A DNA stretch of 64,000 nt from an uncultured Planctomycetaceae bacterium (GTDB taxonomy: Bacteria; Planctomycetota; Planctomycetia; Pirellulales; Pirellulaceae), in assembly GCA_937862885.1 (NCBI GenBank), contig CALMEE010000008.1, positions 1-64,000 of the forward strand, in the 5' to 3' direction. Within the stretch, counting starts at the first letter, position 1, and every line of letters begins with the position of its first letter. The notes below the pieces were generated by a model. It ran no database searches. It was given only the letters and a program-made list of their open reading frames with translations, and was not told the DNA's origin. This document shows, one piece after another, positions 3,640-12,143 of the stretch. A program made the translations under genes and the position numbers.

Positions 3640-3846
3640 AAATATATTTTCAGTATTTGCTTCGAACGCACGAATAGACTTATGTTCAACAATCAAGACG
3701 AACAGTCTGACCAAGCCAGTGAATACGTACTCGATTCCTGTTGCCATACCACGTCGCTAAGGATTCAAGTCGCATTTCACTGGCCTGCGTACAGTGTAAT
3801 GCCGTAGAATTTGGCGGTTCTCGCGCCTATCCAAAAAAGCACCTTC

Positions 3847-4674
3847 ATGACAAATCGAAACCAAGAAAATCAACTTAGCGTTCGTCCTATTCAGCGCTAC
3901 GGTGGCGTATTGATGGCGACCGTGATGCGGCAAATGGTCCGTTCGCTCGACTTACGTGCAAGCCACTATGATCGGAGTGTGAACCCAGGCCTCGATGAAT
4001 ATGGAGAGCACGTGATCTTTGTGTTCTGGCATGAATACATTTTTCCACTATTGCCGCAATGGGCAAACCGACCACTAACGCTTTTGGTGAGCCAACACCG
4101 AGACGCTGAATGGCTAAACCAAGCGGCAATTCGCCTCGGTTATGATGTAGTTCGCGGTAGTACAAATCGTGGAGGCGCAAATGCTATTCGGACCCTCAAA
4201 CGCTACGCCAAACACTCCAGCTTTGCGATTACGCCTGACGGTCCGCGCGGCCCGCGTCGGGAAATGGCGGTGGGACCGATCTTTCTGGCTTCACTGTTGA
4301 ACATGCCCATTGTGCCAGTGGGGGTCGGTTGCGACCGGCCGATGCGCTTGCTGACCTGGGATCGATTTGCTATTCCCCGAATCTGCTCGCGCGTTCGGAT
4401 TGTTTTTGGACCAAAAATTGAGATCCCCAGAAAGAGCAAGACTGAAAACGAAACGTACCGTGTCAAGATTCAATCATTGATAGAGAAGTTAACCAATTTT
4501 GCTGAAGACTGGGCGGTGAGCGGCCGTTCAGTCATTGGCGAGGAACGGCTATCGAACCACGCGCCGCGGCAAACCAAATACTCGGGGAACCACCGCGTGG
4601 AAACCTACCCGAGTGCCGCGGGTGAGAATGAAATTCTGCTGGTCCATAGCCGTTTCCCGCCGCTCGGGACTTAA
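3847..4674 (+). CDS. Lysophospholipid acyltransferase family protein (DUF374)
   Basis: The protein of about 275 residues matches the DUF374 branch of the lysophospholipid acyltransferase/LpxL-like superfamily. Diagnostic stretches are FWHEY, SQHRDAEW, RGSTNRGGANAIR and ITPDGPRGPRR, which supply the acyl-acceptor and acyl-donor pocket residues of this family; the substrate is unknown. The C-terminal tail of about 40 residues is not part of the domain. I chose ATG 3847; an in-frame TTG at 3811 would add 12 residues, and neither has a strong ribosome binding site. It stands alone, downstream of the AsmA-like gene, and a role in envelope lipid synthesis is inferred. Confidence 0.8.
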   Translation: MTNRNQENQLSVRPIQRYGGVLMATVMRQMVRSLDLRASHYDRSVNPGLDEYGEHVIFVFWHEYIFPLLPQWANRPLTLLVSQHRDAEWLNQAAIRLGYDVVRGSTNRGGANAIRTLKRYAKHSSFAITPDGPRGPRREMAVGPIFLASLLNMPIVPVGVGCDRPMRLLTWDRFAIPRICSRVRIVFGPKIEIPRKSKTENETYRVKIQSLIEKLTNFAEDWAVSGRSVIGEERLSNHAPRQTKYSGNHRVETYPSAAGENEILLVHSRFPPLGT

Positions 4675-5147: not shown

Positions 5148-8100
5148 GTGGATATTTCAAAAAATAGCAGCCCGTATTCTCCTCCCTTAACGCACTTGGT
5201 TGACAGATTCCGTTACTGGTGCTTCGCTTCGCCCGACAGCGTCGCCTTTCATTTCATCTTAGACCAAGATGACGAACCGGTTTCGTTGACGTATCGGCAG
5301 TTGGATGAGCGGATTCGGGCAGTTGCTGCAAAGTTGAACTCTAAAGTGGCACGAGGTCAACGCGCAATTCTGATGTATCAAAGCACGTTGGACTTTGTAA
5401 TCGCTTTTTTTGCCTGTCACTACGCAGGTATTATTGCCGTACCCGCTTATCCGCCACGTCGTAATCGCCGCATGGGAAGAATTAATGCGATTGCCGAGGA
5501 CTGTCAGGCCGCGATTGCGCTCACGGCCGGCGAGGTCATTCGCCGCAAGGAAGGGATGATCGAAGATTGCGATGCCTTGCGCAATATACCTTGGGTAGCT
5601 ACGGAAGAGATTCCGTTGGAAATGGCGGGAGACTGGGTTTATCCCGACTTGGACCGGGATGAGGTCGGCTTGTTGCAATACACATCCGGTTCCACAGGAT
5701 CACCCAAAGGTGTCGTGCTTACCCATGCCAATATCATGGCGAACTTGGCGTATATTTCGGAAGCATTTGAACTGGATCGGAGCAGCGTTGGCGTGACATG
5801 GCTGCCACCATACCATGACATGGGACTGATCGGCGGATTGCTGGTTTCCTGTTACTGGGGAGGCATGTCGGTGGCGATGACACCAATCCAGTTCCTAACC
5901 AAGCCAATTCGGTGGCTGCGGGCGATTTCCAAGTTCCGCGGGAACGTCGCCGGTGGCCCTAATTTTGCATACTCACTCTGCGTCAATCGCATCGACGAGG
6001 CTGATTGCGAAGGTCTCGACTTGTCATCCTGGCGAGTCGCCTTCAACGGGGCCGAACCTATCCGTTCCGAGACACTGGATGCGTTTACCAAGAAGTTCGA
6101 ACCGTATGGCTTCGAGCACAAAAATCATTACCCGTGTTACGGAATGGCGGAAACAACTTTGTTGGTCACGGGGAGCAACATCGATCAGCCCCCGATTTAC
6201 AAATCGGTGAGTCGTCAACACCTCGCCGAACATCGCGTGGTTTCTAGCAAGCCAAATCAAGCCGATTCGCGGATCCTTGTAGGATGTGGTCATCCGGTTG
6301 AAGGCGAAAAAATCATCATCGTCCACCCGGAAGCGCGCAGGCAACTCCCGGCGGACCAAATTGGAGAGATTTGGGTAAAATCCGACAGCGTCGGTCAAGG
6401 CTATTGGAATAAGCCAGAAGAAACGGAAAAGACGTTCCGAGGTACGCTCGTCGATGGCGTTGAAGGCGAGTACTTTTTGCGAACCGGTGATCTCGGATTC
6501 ATGGATGGAAATGAATTGTATGTAACCGGTCGCCTCAAAGACATGATCGTTATCCGAGGTGTGAATCGGTACCCACAAGACATTGAAGCAACCGTCGAAC
6601 GCGTGAGCGATCGCCTGCAGGATGCCGGTGCTGCCGCTTTTGCGATTGATAGTTGGGAGCGAGAACGGCTACTCGTTGTGTGTGAGGTCGATCGCCAACG
6701 CGTCGAAACGGACTGGAATCAAATCATCGACCAAATTCGTTCGGCCGTTACCGAAGAACACGATTTGGCACCCGACGGCATCATCCTGGTTCGTGCTGGC
6801 TCTGTCCCCAAAACATCGAGCGGTAAAGTTCAACGCCGGGCTTGTCGCGATGATTACCTTGAAAATCGGTTATTGGTAGTAGCGAAATGGTTGTCCTGGG
6901 AAAAATCTGCTTCACATGATTGGATTCCTGAGGTCGATCAGGAGCAACAACCGATTGACGATCAACTTTTGGGAATCGTGATTGATCATGTACGGCAAGT
7001 GGCGAAGGAACGCGCAAAATCGATTAACGAAGATACGAATATCGTAATTGATTTGGGCCTTGACTCGCTGGAGCGACTGCAGATTGCCAACAGCTTAGAG
7101 GACACTTTCGGCGGGCGATTCCCCGACGACGTTCTGCAAGAGATCGAAACGATACGTGAAATTTGTACCGCGATCAAAGCGCATATTGGCGATCGCCCCG
7201 TTGCCATCATCTCGAAAAACGAATCCGCTAAGGAAAAGAAACTGGCGATCAAAGGACCGATCCCGAGTTCTTATTATGAACTCGACCAAATGCCGGAATT
7301 CATTCGTGTTCAGCAATTGCGATCCGTGTTTGAGTCGACAGGTATTCGCAACCCATTCTTTTCGCTGCATGAGGGGGTTATCTCCGATACAACGCGAATC
7401 GATGGTCGCGAGTTAATCTCGTTCTCCAGTTACAACTACATTAACATGTCCGGCAATCCGGAGGTGACTGCCGCCGCCAAATCAGCAATCGACCAATTCG
7501 GGACGAGCTCATCCGCCAGTCGCCTCGTGTCCGGTGAAAAGACAGTGCACAAACAACTGGAGCGAGAGCTTGCCCAATTCTTGGGGGTCGAAGATGTGGT
7601 CACGATGGCTGGTGGGCATGCAACTAATGAAAGTACAATCGGCCATTTGGTCGGTGCCGGCGACTTGATTTTGCATGATGCCTTGGCCCACAACAGCATT
7701 ATTCAAGGTGCAGCACTCTCTGGCGCGCGACGTCGTTCATTTTTGCATAATGACTGGAGAAACCTCGATGAGGTCCTATCCGAAATTCGCCACGAATATC
7801 GCCGCGTGCTTGTCGCCATTGAAGGGCTGTATAGCATGGATGGCGATTCACCTGATTTGGCTAGATTCGTCGAGATCAAAAAGAAGCACAAAGTCTGGTT
7901 GTTCGTCGACGAAGCTCATTCGATCGGAACCTTAGGGCCAACTGGGCGCGGAATTGGCGAAATCTATGGGGTTGACCGCACGGACGTGGAAGTTTGGATG
8001 GGAACCCTAAGCAAGTCGATGGGCAGCGTCGGCGGGTTTATCGGAGGAAAGCGAAGTCTTATCGAGTACTTGCGGTACACGAATCCGGGATTTGTTTTCG

Positions 8101-8504
8101 CGGCTGCATTAGCTCCTGTAAACGCAGCCGCTGCATTGGCGAGTTTACGCATTTTGAAGCGCGAACCGGAACGGGTTCGACAACTGGCGGAAAATTCGCG
8201 GTTATTTCTTGAACTGGCGCGCGAAGCAGGATTGAATACAGGGATGAGCAAAGACTCACCCATCATTCCCATCATCACGGGGAATTCGCTCCAGGCGTTG
8301 CAGCTATCTCAGGCTCTGTATTTTAGAGGATTCAATGTGCAGCCCATTCTTCATCCGGCCGTGGAAGAAGAAAAGGCGCGCTTGCGCTTCTTCATCACTT
8401 CGGCGCACAGCAGCGACCAAATCCGCGCAGCCGTTAGTGCATTGATCGAAGAATACGCCAAGATTGCACCGCAAAAATTCGATGTCGAATGCAGCACTCG
8501 ATAA
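5148..8504 (+). CDS. Fatty acyl-AMP ligase / ACP / alpha-oxoamine synthase trifunctional protein
   Basis: One 1118-residue chain holds three units. Residues about 10-590 form a fatty acyl-AMP ligase, with the ATP loop YTSGSTGSPKG near 178 and the FAAL-type motif KDMIVIRGVNRYPQDIE. Residues about 605-685 form an acyl carrier domain with the LGLDSLE attachment site, phosphopantetheine on Ser640. Residues about 720-1110 form a PLP enzyme of the alpha-oxoamine synthase family (KBL/AONS/SPT), with the Schiff-base lysine in TLSKSMGS at Lys956. Expected chemistry: activate a fatty acid, load it on the carrier, then condense it decarboxylatively with an amino acid to give an amino-ketone lipid precursor, as in sphingolipid-like pathways. 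The GTG start at 5148 is the longest in-frame option. The amino-acid substrate cannot be read from sequence. Confidence 0.88.
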   Translation: MDISKNSSPYSPPLTHLVDRFRYWCFASPDSVAFHFILDQDDEPVSLTYRQLDERIRAVAAKLNSKVARGQRAILMYQSTLDFVIAFFACHYAGIIAVPAYPPRRNRRMGRINAIAEDCQAAIALTAGEVIRRKEGMIEDCDALRNIPWVATEEIPLEMAGDWVYPDLDRDEVGLLQYTSGSTGSPKGVVLTHANIMANLAYISEAFELDRSSVGVTWLPPYHDMGLIGGLLVSCYWGGMSVAMTPIQFLTKPIRWLRAISKFRGNVAGGPNFAYSLCVNRIDEADCEGLDLSSWRVAFNGAEPIRSETLDAFTKKFEPYGFEHKNHYPCYGMAETTLLVTGSNIDQPPIYKSVSRQHLAEHRVVSSKPNQADSRILVGCGHPVEGEKIIIVHPEARRQLPADQIGEIWVKSDSVGQGYWNKPEETEKTFRGTLVDGVEGEYFLRTGDLGFMDGNELYVTGRLKDMIVIRGVNRYPQDIEATVERVSDRLQDAGAAAFAIDSWERERLLVVCEVDRQRVETDWNQIIDQIRSAVTEEHDLAPDGIILVRAGSVPKTSSGKVQRRACRDDYLENRLLVVAKWLSWEKSASHDWIPEVDQEQQPIDDQLLGIVIDHVRQVAKERAKSINEDTNIVIDLGLDSLERLQIANSLEDTFGGRFPDDVLQEIETIREICTAIKAHIGDRPVAIISKNESAKEKKLAIKGPIPSSYYELDQMPEFIRVQQLRSVFESTGIRNPFFSLHEGVISDTTRIDGRELISFSSYNYINMSGNPEVTAAAKSAIDQFGTSSSASRLVSGEKTVHKQLERELAQFLGVEDVVTMAGGHATNESTIGHLVGAGDLILHDALAHNSIIQGAALSGARRRSFLHNDWRNLDEVLSEIRHEYRRVLVAIEGLYSMDGDSPDLARFVEIKKKHKVWLFVDEAHSIGTLGPTGRGIGEIYGVDRTDVEVWMGTLSKSMGSVGGFIGGKRSLIEYLRYTNPGFVFAAALAPVNAAAALASLRILKREPERVRQLAENSRLFLELAREAGLNTGMSKDSPIIPIITGNSLQALQLSQALYFRGFNVQPILHPAVEEEKARLRFFITSAHSSDQIRAAVSALIEEYAKIAPQKFDVECSTR

Positions 8505-9831: not shown

Positions 9832-10575
9832 TTATTGAATGTCTAGTCGGGACAAAACGAACGACATTTTGGGTCGCTTTGCATCGAAAAACAACCAATT
9901 TTTCGCCGTAATCGAAATGCGTTTTCGAACTTCCGGATGGAGCCGAAAAGAATTGTCGAGCAACTGCTCAATTCGCTGGGCCGAGGCCATCGCTTTTGAT
10001 AATGCGCCGGGGCTTGGGAGGTTTGCCCAAACGATAATTTCCAGTTCGAATTGAGAGTTTGATGCCTGCTGAACGGCGTCGGACAATAGTTGTAAAGCGT
10101 TCGGGCCCAATATCGGTTGCTCTGCAGCTCCAAGCTTCTCAAACGAGTCGAACACGATTTGTGCCTGAATTGGCGGAGCAGCATGAACTTCAAATTGATA
10201 CTGCATTTCGTTTAGGAATCGAGCGAAATTATCTCGCTCTCGACTCTTGACGACTTTCGTTGTGTCATCGTCATCCGGACCGCGGTTGCTCTTTCTTTCC
10301 GATGGGTCATTTTTCTGTATGGCGTAAATAGGTGCCTGATCCACTTTGGGGATTACAATATCCGATCGACTGCCAGGACGATTGCCGGCGACCCCAGTTC
10401 GCTTAAACGCGGTTACGAACGATCCCGTACCGGAATAGAGTTGCGCGCCGGTCTGATCTTTAGCCAACGAATTCAGTACGATGAAAAAGGCCAGTAGCGC
10501 GGTCATTGTGTCCCCAAAAGAGATGAGGTACGATTTGCTCGGCTTTTTGGGAGGTGCTTTTGCGGATCGACTCAT
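9832..10575 (-). CDS. MotB-like flagellar stator protein, second copy
   Basis: The 247-residue protein has one N-terminal membrane segment preceded by FGDTMTALLAFF; Asp22 fits the proton-carrying aspartate of MotB. The C-terminal 80 residues resemble a much degenerated OmpA/MotB peptidoglycan-binding domain and lack a clear binding motif. Its ATG overlaps the stop of the preceding motB-like gene by four bases (10572-10575), so the two are translationally coupled. With motA just upstream this forms a stator operon of one MotA and two MotB-like proteins. The paired subunits may form a mixed stator, or one copy may be regulatory. Confidence 0.8.
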   Translation of the reverse strand: MSRSAKAPPKKPSKSYLISFGDTMTALLAFFIVLNSLAKDQTGAQLYSGTGSFVTAFKRTGVAGNRPGSRSDIVIPKVDQAPIYAIQKNDPSERKSNRGPDDDDTTKVVKSRERDNFARFLNEMQYQFEVHAAPPIQAQIVFDSFEKLGAAEQPILGPNALQLLSDAVQQASNSQFELEIIVWANLPSPGALSKAMASAQRIEQLLDNSFRLHPEVRKRISITAKNWLFFDAKRPKMSFVLSRLDIQ

Positions 10576-11237
10576 GGCTGGTTTACCAAATGGTGCTTGA
10601 TTACGATCCGAAAACTGTCCCTGTCTAAAGAGGCATCTTTGATCAACGACATGCCGATTGAACCTGGACGAGTCCGTTCTTGATTGATCAAATGCATCAT
10701 GACGGCGGAGATTTTTGGTGTGTCATCTTGGTTGGAAAACTGGAAGGCGACCTGAAATGGCAAGTCTCGCAATTGTGCTGCCAGCATGCTCAACAATATC
10801 TTGCCTTGAGCGGTGATCTCTCCATTTGACGCAAAGACCCGATTGAACCGCACGTCAAAAAAGTGAGTCATCACTTCATTGTGCCTTTTCTCGTCCGGCT
10901 TTAATGCTTCCATCCCTTTCGAGAAGGCTTCTTTCGGAGGACTTTTTGTGATCGGAGGCATTTCAGCGCCACGCAACGCGATGCGAGAAGATGGCGGTCG
11001 AACTCTACTCACCCAGGTCTCTTTGGGTTGCCCTTGCAACTCGACACCGTGAATCCCTGTGGCACTGGTTGCTGAAGAAACACTAGTTTGCACTCGATCA
11101 AATTTCTCAGGCTCCATCGTCGAGAACGTCAACAACAGAATGAAAAAGGTCATCAGCAACGTGATCACGTCGCTGTACGTCATGAACCAAGGCGGGATGT
11201 CGTCTTTCTGAGGAGGAAAGATTATTTTCTTCGCCAT
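10572..11237 (-). CDS. motB: MotB-like flagellar stator protein, first copy
   Basis: The 221-residue protein carries the typical MotB N-terminus: a charged stretch, then FMTYSDVITLLMTFFILL with the conserved Asp23 at the start of the only membrane helix. It is expected to pair with MotA to form the ion channel that powers flagellar rotation. The periplasmic part is short and poorly conserved, without an obvious OmpA peptidoglycan-binding motif. It lies 123 bases downstream of motA and overlaps the second MotB-like gene by four bases. The assignment as stator rests on the membrane motif and the operon. Confidence 0.82.
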   Translation of the reverse strand: MAKKIIFPPQKDDIPPWFMTYSDVITLLMTFFILLLTFSTMEPEKFDRVQTSVSSATSATGIHGVELQGQPKETWVSRVRPPSSRIALRGAEMPPITKSPPKEAFSKGMEALKPDEKRHNEVMTHFFDVRFNRVFASNGEITAQGKILLSMLAAQLRDLPFQVAFQFSNQDDTPKISAVMMHLINQERTRPGSIGMSLIKDASLDRDSFRIVIKHHLVNQP

Positions 11238-11360
11238 ACTTAACTCGACTTGGTAGCTCTTATGGTCATGTTAGGTTAAGCGGAGATCAGTCGGCAGCTC
11301 AAACGAATTTGTCCGTTTATCATGTACTCTTTATCTTCATTGAGGCACGGCGCTTCGCGT

Positions 11361-12143
11361 TTACGCTTGCACTGGCTGCAATTTCTTACGACTCTTCGGT
11401 GCCAAATATGCAGCCATCTGGTCTTCGAGCGCACGAGGAGCAAGACCCTCAGCTAACCCAGTCAACCCGGATATCATCAATTCTCTGACCAAGACTTCTT
11501 CCTTACTGCGGCTTTCCAATTTTCCTGCTAACGGTATACACGCCACGTTTGCGATTACTGCACCGTATAACGTCGTTAGCAATGCCACGGCCATGCCGCT
11601 GCCGATTTGGCTTGGGTCGTCCAGCGAGCGTAGCATTTGCACTAGGCCAACCAGCGTACCAATCATGCCAAACGCCGGTGCAGCTGCTCCCATGGCATCG
11701 ACAATTTGTTTGCCTTTCATGTGACGAGATTCAATCGCCGACAATTCGGTTTCGAGAATGCCACGCAATTGCGTTTCACTAGCTCCGCTAATGACGTTTT
11801 CCAAGCCCCGCCGCATGAAATCATCGTTTATCTTTCCAAGTTCCTGTTCCAGAGCCAACATGCCATCTTTGCGAACGATCGTTGCCAAATCTTTGAATTG
11901 CTTGATAATTTCGGTGCTTAGTGGCATCTTAAAGAGAAAGCATTTCTTTATGACGCCGACAGTGGTCAGCACAGTGTGCATAGGAAAATTGATAAACAAC
12001 GCTGCAATCGATCCTCCTACAGTGATCATCAGCGATGGAACGTCTATGAACGACGCAAATCCTTCAGCGCCACCGCCAATTACAATTGCGACGGCAATCA
12101 AACCAAAACCAGCAAGAAGTCCAACTATTGTTGCGATGTCCAC
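11361..12143 (-). CDS. motA: Flagellar motor stator protein MotA
   Basis: The 260-residue protein fits MotA/PomA throughout: N-terminus MDIATIVGLLAGFGLI, an early helix with the GGSIAALFINFP region, a large cytoplasmic loop rich in charged residues, and the late pair of helices containing PAFGMIGTLVGLVQML and the GMAVALLTTLYG motif. It forms the stator ion channel with MotB and presses on the FliG rotor. The start is GTG at 12143, with a GAGG about 8 bases ahead. It is the first gene of the motA-motB-motB operon on the minus strand. Confidence 0.92.
   Translation of the reverse strand: MDIATIVGLLAGFGLIAVAIVIGGGAEGFASFIDVPSLMITVGGSIAALFINFPMHTVLTTVGVIKKCFLFKMPLSTEIIKQFKDLATIVRKDGMLALEQELGKINDDFMRRGLENVISGASETQLRGILETELSAIESRHMKGKQIVDAMGAAAPAFGMIGTLVGLVQMLRSLDDPSQIGSGMAVALLTTLYGAVIANVACIPLAGKLESRSKEEVLVRELMISGLTGLAEGLAPRALEDQMAAYLAPKSRKKLQPVQA

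Follow-up and report, generated by a model that had tools for sequence, protein, structure and literature searches.

The window, the 64,000-nucleotide stretch of DNA analysed here, carries on its plus strand a gene at 5148–8504 (GTG start, 1118 amino acids) that fuses three domains: a fatty acyl-AMP ligase (FAAL) domain (amino acids 24–577, window 5217–6878; FAAL type by its best matches), an acyl carrier domain (ACP; amino acids 611–676, window 6978–7175) and an alpha-oxoamine synthase (AOS) domain (amino acids 745–1106, window 7380–8465) of the RkpG/PKS-AOS clade inside the SPT supergroup. Pfam matched the chain to AMP-binding at 24–420 (8e-62), AMP-dom_DIP2-like at 465–577 (3e-13), PP-binding at 611–676 (3e-12) and Aminotran_1_2 at 755–1099 (7e-48). 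The best NCBIfam models for the ligase domain were FAALs (437 bits, versus 180 for a general CoA ligase), at scores that stayed below the FAAL equivalog cut-offs, and in alignment the domain was colinear with E. coli AasR, the FAAL insert region included. The fusion was modelled using AlphaFold2 (mean pLDDT 81, pTM 0.54), which gave confident domain folds and, because of the pTM, an uncertain packing of the domains. With Foldseek, the ligase domain matched FAAL structures best (7r7e, TM 0.92 by target) and was placed on the FAAL of the Synechococcus olefin synthase; the AOS domain matched the AOS/SPT structures 7poc, 8guh and 3a2b (TM ~0.89). Pfam, alignment and Foldseek thus agree on an acyl-AMP ligase, a carrier and an AOS in one polypeptide, as the preliminary description had proposed, and family, alignment and structure evidence backs the chemistry predicted there, in which a fatty acid would be activated, held on the ACP and condensed.

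Catalytic residues were compared in an alignment of 27 fusions. Ser640 (codon 7065–7067), in the motif GLDSLER, was invariant, and Lys956 (codon 8013–8015), in the motif GTLSKS, was kept in 26 of the 27, in line with the roles given to them earlier, as phosphopantetheine site and as PLP Schiff-base lysine, respectively. The PLP-stacking His of SPTs, His848 (7689–7691), was likewise kept in 26/27 fusions, while the PLP ring contacts Asp921–His924 (DEAH, 7908–7919) and the carboxylate Arg of the AOS domain, R1080, were present in all 27; with K956, H848, the DxxH residues D921 and H924, and R1080, the domain has the residues by which AOS membership was judged. The motif GTLSKS resembles the GTFSKS of SPTs and differs from GTLGKA, found in the KBL and ALAS rows of that alignment. 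None of the pocket residues compared separated serine users from glycine or alanine users with confidence. At another position, His833 (window 7644–7646), 27/27 fusions and the PKS-AOS rows shown have His, where an aromatic residue is usual in the AOS family and RkpG has Tyr.

A DUF374 acyltransferase-like gene (3811–4674, plus strand) lies 473 bp upstream of the fusion. The preliminary description had mentioned it as a neighbor; the gene is real by Pfam, but the hint of a partner found no support, since no homologue was present in the other fusion loci examined, and the gene was rejected as a partner of the fusion, to which it is probably unrelated. Neighbors conserved in up to 16 loci were porin-like, TraB/GumN-like and AP_endonuc_2 genes, which have no lipid link. 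Among the fusion neighbors examined, there were no ceramide genes and no PKS RkpA, SDR RkpH or capsule genes. The swf clusters (PMC3908369) were looked at as a lead and were unrelated. Just downstream of the fusion, the minus strand (window 9832–12143) carries a MotA/ExbB-type gene followed by two MotB_plug genes, an ordinary arrangement.

Complete fusions with the same domain order were found in 30 of 40 related genomes (46–57% identity), and three more were cut by contig ends; because complete fusions recur in this way, the gene is neither a chance joining nor an assembly chimera. An alignment-based scan of a genome collection named Pirellula, Rhodopirellula, Mariniblastus and strain TBK1r as hosts, and also returned more distant full-length fusions in Limnothrix and a Bacteroidetes bin, and FAAL-ACP modules of similar type in many cyanobacteria and myxobacteria. 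Judged by the named hosts, the window stems from Pirellulaceae or close relatives. The architecture was already known: Table 2 of a 2013 survey lists proteins of the same domain layout, termed A-CP-PLP2, in Blastopirellula marina (A3ZWL3) and Microscilla marina (A1ZVW4) with no function assigned; where the survey treats A-CP-PLP2, it draws no function, lipid or bCerS link (PMC3870968). A3ZWL3, from a Pirellulales species, is very likely an orthologue of the window fusion, and what is new here is the evidence on the product of the fusion, not its architecture.

In AOS trees, which were quick trees with several deep forks open and with deep branches that shifted when degenerate rows were added in the third, the window AOS fell into a clade (99) with the other fusions, ACP-AOS proteins, PKS-AOS proteins and RkpG of Sinorhizobium meliloti, and membership of the RkpG clade had support of 99 and 96 in two trees. 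This clade nests in the SPT supergroup (97), to which bacterial SPTs and human SPTLC2 belong as well, and the window AOS falls outside the proteobacterial SPT clade and the proven bacterial SPTs in these trees. The NCBIfam cut-offs for the SPT family were missed (278–291 bits versus 500–640, and 229 versus 670 for a third model). RkpG, at 46% identity, is the closest relative of the window AOS with a known genetic role, and both RkpG and PKS-linked AOSs are nearer to it than the proven SPTs are. Because the domain groups with RkpG and PKS-linked AOSs, away from proteobacterial Spt, serine can be named only as the presumed substrate. The other two AOSs of the window genome (G000) fell elsewhere, C114 with KBL and C101 in a BioF-like set from planctomycetes, which leaves the fusion as the sole SPT-supergroup AOS of this genome (94% complete) and as the one candidate long-chain base synthase that was found there.

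In the wider Planctomycetota, the ceramide locus consists of Spt directly before the ceramide synthase (bCerS), with CerR usually divergent. A bCerS gene directly behind an AOS gene on the same strand was counted, by eye from tables, in at least 40 of 246 genomes sampled phylum-wide; the AOSs directly before bCerS grouped with proteobacterial SPT (97) in 16 of 16 cases tested, and a CerR homologue lay nearby at 11 of these 16 loci, most often in divergent orientation to the AOS. In Pirellulales, standalone Spt is generally missing and bCerS is kept, and among the Pirellulales loci examined, only those of G025 and G001 had bCerS adjacent to an AOS. The window genome encodes three bCerS/YghO homologues (33–38% to YghO), one of which (C130) adjoins an SDR that is a CerR candidate by a weak match (60 bits). 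Clear CerR homologues lie beside bCerS in G002, G005 and G006, and G026 has a CerR-like gene and no bCerS; because of this genome, and because SDR paralogues blur the picture, CerR co-occurrence was not used as evidence.

Presence of a fusion-type AOS (E below 1e-85) and of bCerS was listed for 197 Pirellulales genomes, by hand from tables. Both were present in 163 genomes, the AOS only in 4, bCerS only in 12 and neither in 18, and thus 16 of the 197 were discordant (Fisher test p 3.5e-14, shared ancestry ignored); the fusion-type count takes in PKS-AOS proteins too, because some genera have these besides the fusion. The 18 genomes with neither gene span 9 genera and 5 families. Three of the four fusion-only genomes are at most 87% complete. 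Among the 12 bCerS-only genomes, G025 has its own AOS-bCerS pair, G294 and G360 have contig-end fragments of the fusion, and in G309, G320 and G372 the fusion is full-length but its AOS is degenerate, with a separate AOS whose Lys is intact present as well. The product had been called not readable from sequence; comparison of genomes goes beyond this, the co-occurrence with bCerS suggesting a lipid of ceramide type. The literature searched held no report of Pirellulales sphingolipids; the section of a Black Sea study that deals with Spt-like proteins gives 138 Planctomycetota MAGs with them and does not name their orders (PMC11334938). Outside Pirellulales, a distinct family (f43) has AOS fusions of ~1100 amino acids whose ligase domain is divergent, and gave no bCerS match, so the AOS clade of the fusion is not always tied to ceramide.

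In G001 (C88), an ACP-AOS of the fusion clade (L062:8064-9572) and a bCerS neighbor (L062_7) form a divergent pair, which directly links the AOS clade of the fusion to ceramide synthase by neighborhood. The fusion of the same genome (L043:7867-11346) has Thr in place of the PLP Lys, and in fusions of genus g249 this Lys is replaced by His in G309 (L221), by Ala in G320 (L225) and, by alignment, by Ala in G372 (L239). All four genomes hold additional AOSs with an intact Lys: in G001, the ACP-AOS that adjoins bCerS, and in genus g249, proteins that form a tight extra clade near SPT-type rows in the tree. In these four genomes, the pairing of a degenerate fusion with a separate intact AOS fits a need to keep condensing activity, and the degenerate AOS of the fusion is possibly an SPTLC1-like partner or pseudo-subunit (n = 4 genomes).

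The same three reactions are carried out by the separate proteins AasR, AcpR and Spt in Caulobacter (CC_1165, CC_1163 and CC_1162) and E. coli BL21 (ECD_02851, 02853 and 02854), and Spt prefers acyl-AcpR as the donor (PMC9386255). The operon order in E. coli BL21 is FAAL-epimerase/CerR-ACP-spt, with yghO (bCerS) adjoining. The fusion is like this system in its predicted activities and their logical order, in a carrier-bound acyl donor rather than CoA and in a yghO-type bCerS in the genome, and unlike it in being one chain instead of three genes, in an AOS outside the proteobacterial SPT clade and in a CerR that is not adjacent. The best reading of the fusion is a single polypeptide that would carry out AasR-AcpR-Spt chemistry with an AOS from a different lineage. 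RkpG is a separate protein, encoded next to the PKS RkpA, with an acyl chain that is presumably PKS-made, whereas the window AOS would be loaded by its FAAL domain. Fold, PLP site and the motif GT(F/L)(S/T)KS are shared with the SPTs of Sphingobacterium and Sphingomonas and with human SPTLC2, which, unlike the fusion, are separate proteins with acyl-CoA or an acylated free ACP as donor.

Given the computed domains, intact catalytic sites, phylogeny and bCerS co-occurrence, the fusion is probably a single-chain long-chain-base synthase that feeds ceramide-type lipids and has replaced standalone Spt in Pirellulales; catalysis, the use of serine, the order of the later steps and the final lipid are what we infer from these results. 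By the known chemistry of the families, the FAAL domain would convert a free fatty acid and ATP to acyl-AMP, the acyl group would be passed to the Ser640-phosphopantetheine of its own ACP, and the AOS domain, presumably a dimer like its family, would join acyl-ACP to the PLP aldimine (Lys956) of an amino acid, most likely serine, with release of CO2 and formation of a 3-ketosphinganine-type amino ketone. Genomic evidence suggests serine, and bCerS as the next enzyme. The bCerS homologues of the genome would N-acylate the long-chain base and a CerR-type enzyme would reduce it, giving a ceramide-type lipid, with the Pirellulales fusion taking the place held in other Planctomycetota by a standalone Spt next to bCerS.

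The relationship to RkpG raises an alternative, which we regard as unlikely, in which the product of the fusion is no ceramide but an RkpG-like lipid, a fatty-acid-derived amino ketone serving as anchor or carrier of an envelope polysaccharide. S. meliloti RkpG and PKS-AOS proteins share the clade of the window AOS with strong support (99 and 96), rkpG belongs to the rkp-1 capsule region and has a PKS and an SDR as neighbors (1997 work, as cited in PMC7902896), several related genomes encode a highly reducing PKS (HR-PKS) with an AOS of the same type at its C-terminus, and the f43 fusions occur without bCerS. Capsule genes are, however, absent among the conserved fusion neighbors, fusion-type AOS and bCerS are co-present and co-absent across Pirellulales, and the ACP-AOS that adjoins bCerS in G001 is of the same clade; moreover, the RkpG product could itself be a sphingoid base.

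Use of another amino acid in the same chemistry, either alanine or glycine to give 1-deoxy bases or cysteate to give capnine or a sulfonolipid, appears improbable. AOS enzymes differ in the amino acid used, the pocket holds no residue that proves serine, and use of alanine by Spt is discussed in part of the Black Sea study (PMC11334938). For cysteate, the cysteate acyltransferase SulA has Lys281 where Spt has Ala, and this Lys marks cysteate use (PMC9304779). The corresponding position, placed by alignment, is Ala986 in the window and mostly Val, never Lys, in the other fusions shown, and because the marking Lys is absent there, the sulfonolipid option raised in the preliminary description loses support. 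The structure matches also stand against cysteate, with cysteate acyltransferase at 169 bits, below SPTLC2 (229) and S. wittichii SPT (214). FAAL-ACP modules in cyanobacteria and myxobacteria often start natural-product assembly lines, and modules of similar type are common there, as would fit an amino-ketone enzyme that serves secondary metabolism or signalling and has nothing to do with membrane lipids; for a fusion that is near-universal across an order, linked to bCerS and without an adjacent biosynthetic cluster, such a role is very hard to credit.

Within the reading as a single-chain long-chain-base synthase, a more specific history is put forward tentatively: the canonical Spt may have been displaced in Pirellulales, as the entry enzyme to ceramide, by an AOS of RkpG type that is fused to a fatty-acid loader and a carrier of its own, and in some lineages (G001 and genus g249), where the PLP lysine was lost and a separate intact AOS is present, the fusion may be an acyl-loading, SPTLC1-like partner. 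If the fusion is such a synthase, sphingolipids are made throughout an order of common aquatic bacteria via an enzyme that appears as divergent in standard Spt searches, a compact one-chain route leads from free fatty acid to long-chain base, and Spt has been replaced by another AOS lineage; it would then also become possible to test directly whether Planctomycetota are a source of the environmental sphingolipids for which no producer is known.

Several related proteins were observed besides the fusion. A second FAAL-ACP-AOS type (L058:7621-10950 and L108:6114-8877) has an AOS that groups with an ACP-AOS adjoining a CerR homologue. An AOS of the same clade as that of the fusion also ends the large proteins L063:3419-11086, L103:1837-9576 and L104:2-7369; by Pfam, the L063 protein is a highly reducing PKS with an ACP and then the AOS, a PKS-fed version that recalls fumonisin-type sphinganine analogues. 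In the window genome, a gene at L077:7400-8659 that adjoins bCerS encodes a protein of 419 amino acids (start MNDVVVTGMGIVSPLG), ketoacyl synthase-like by eye, and genes resembling it, again by eye, lie near bCerS in G007 and G027.
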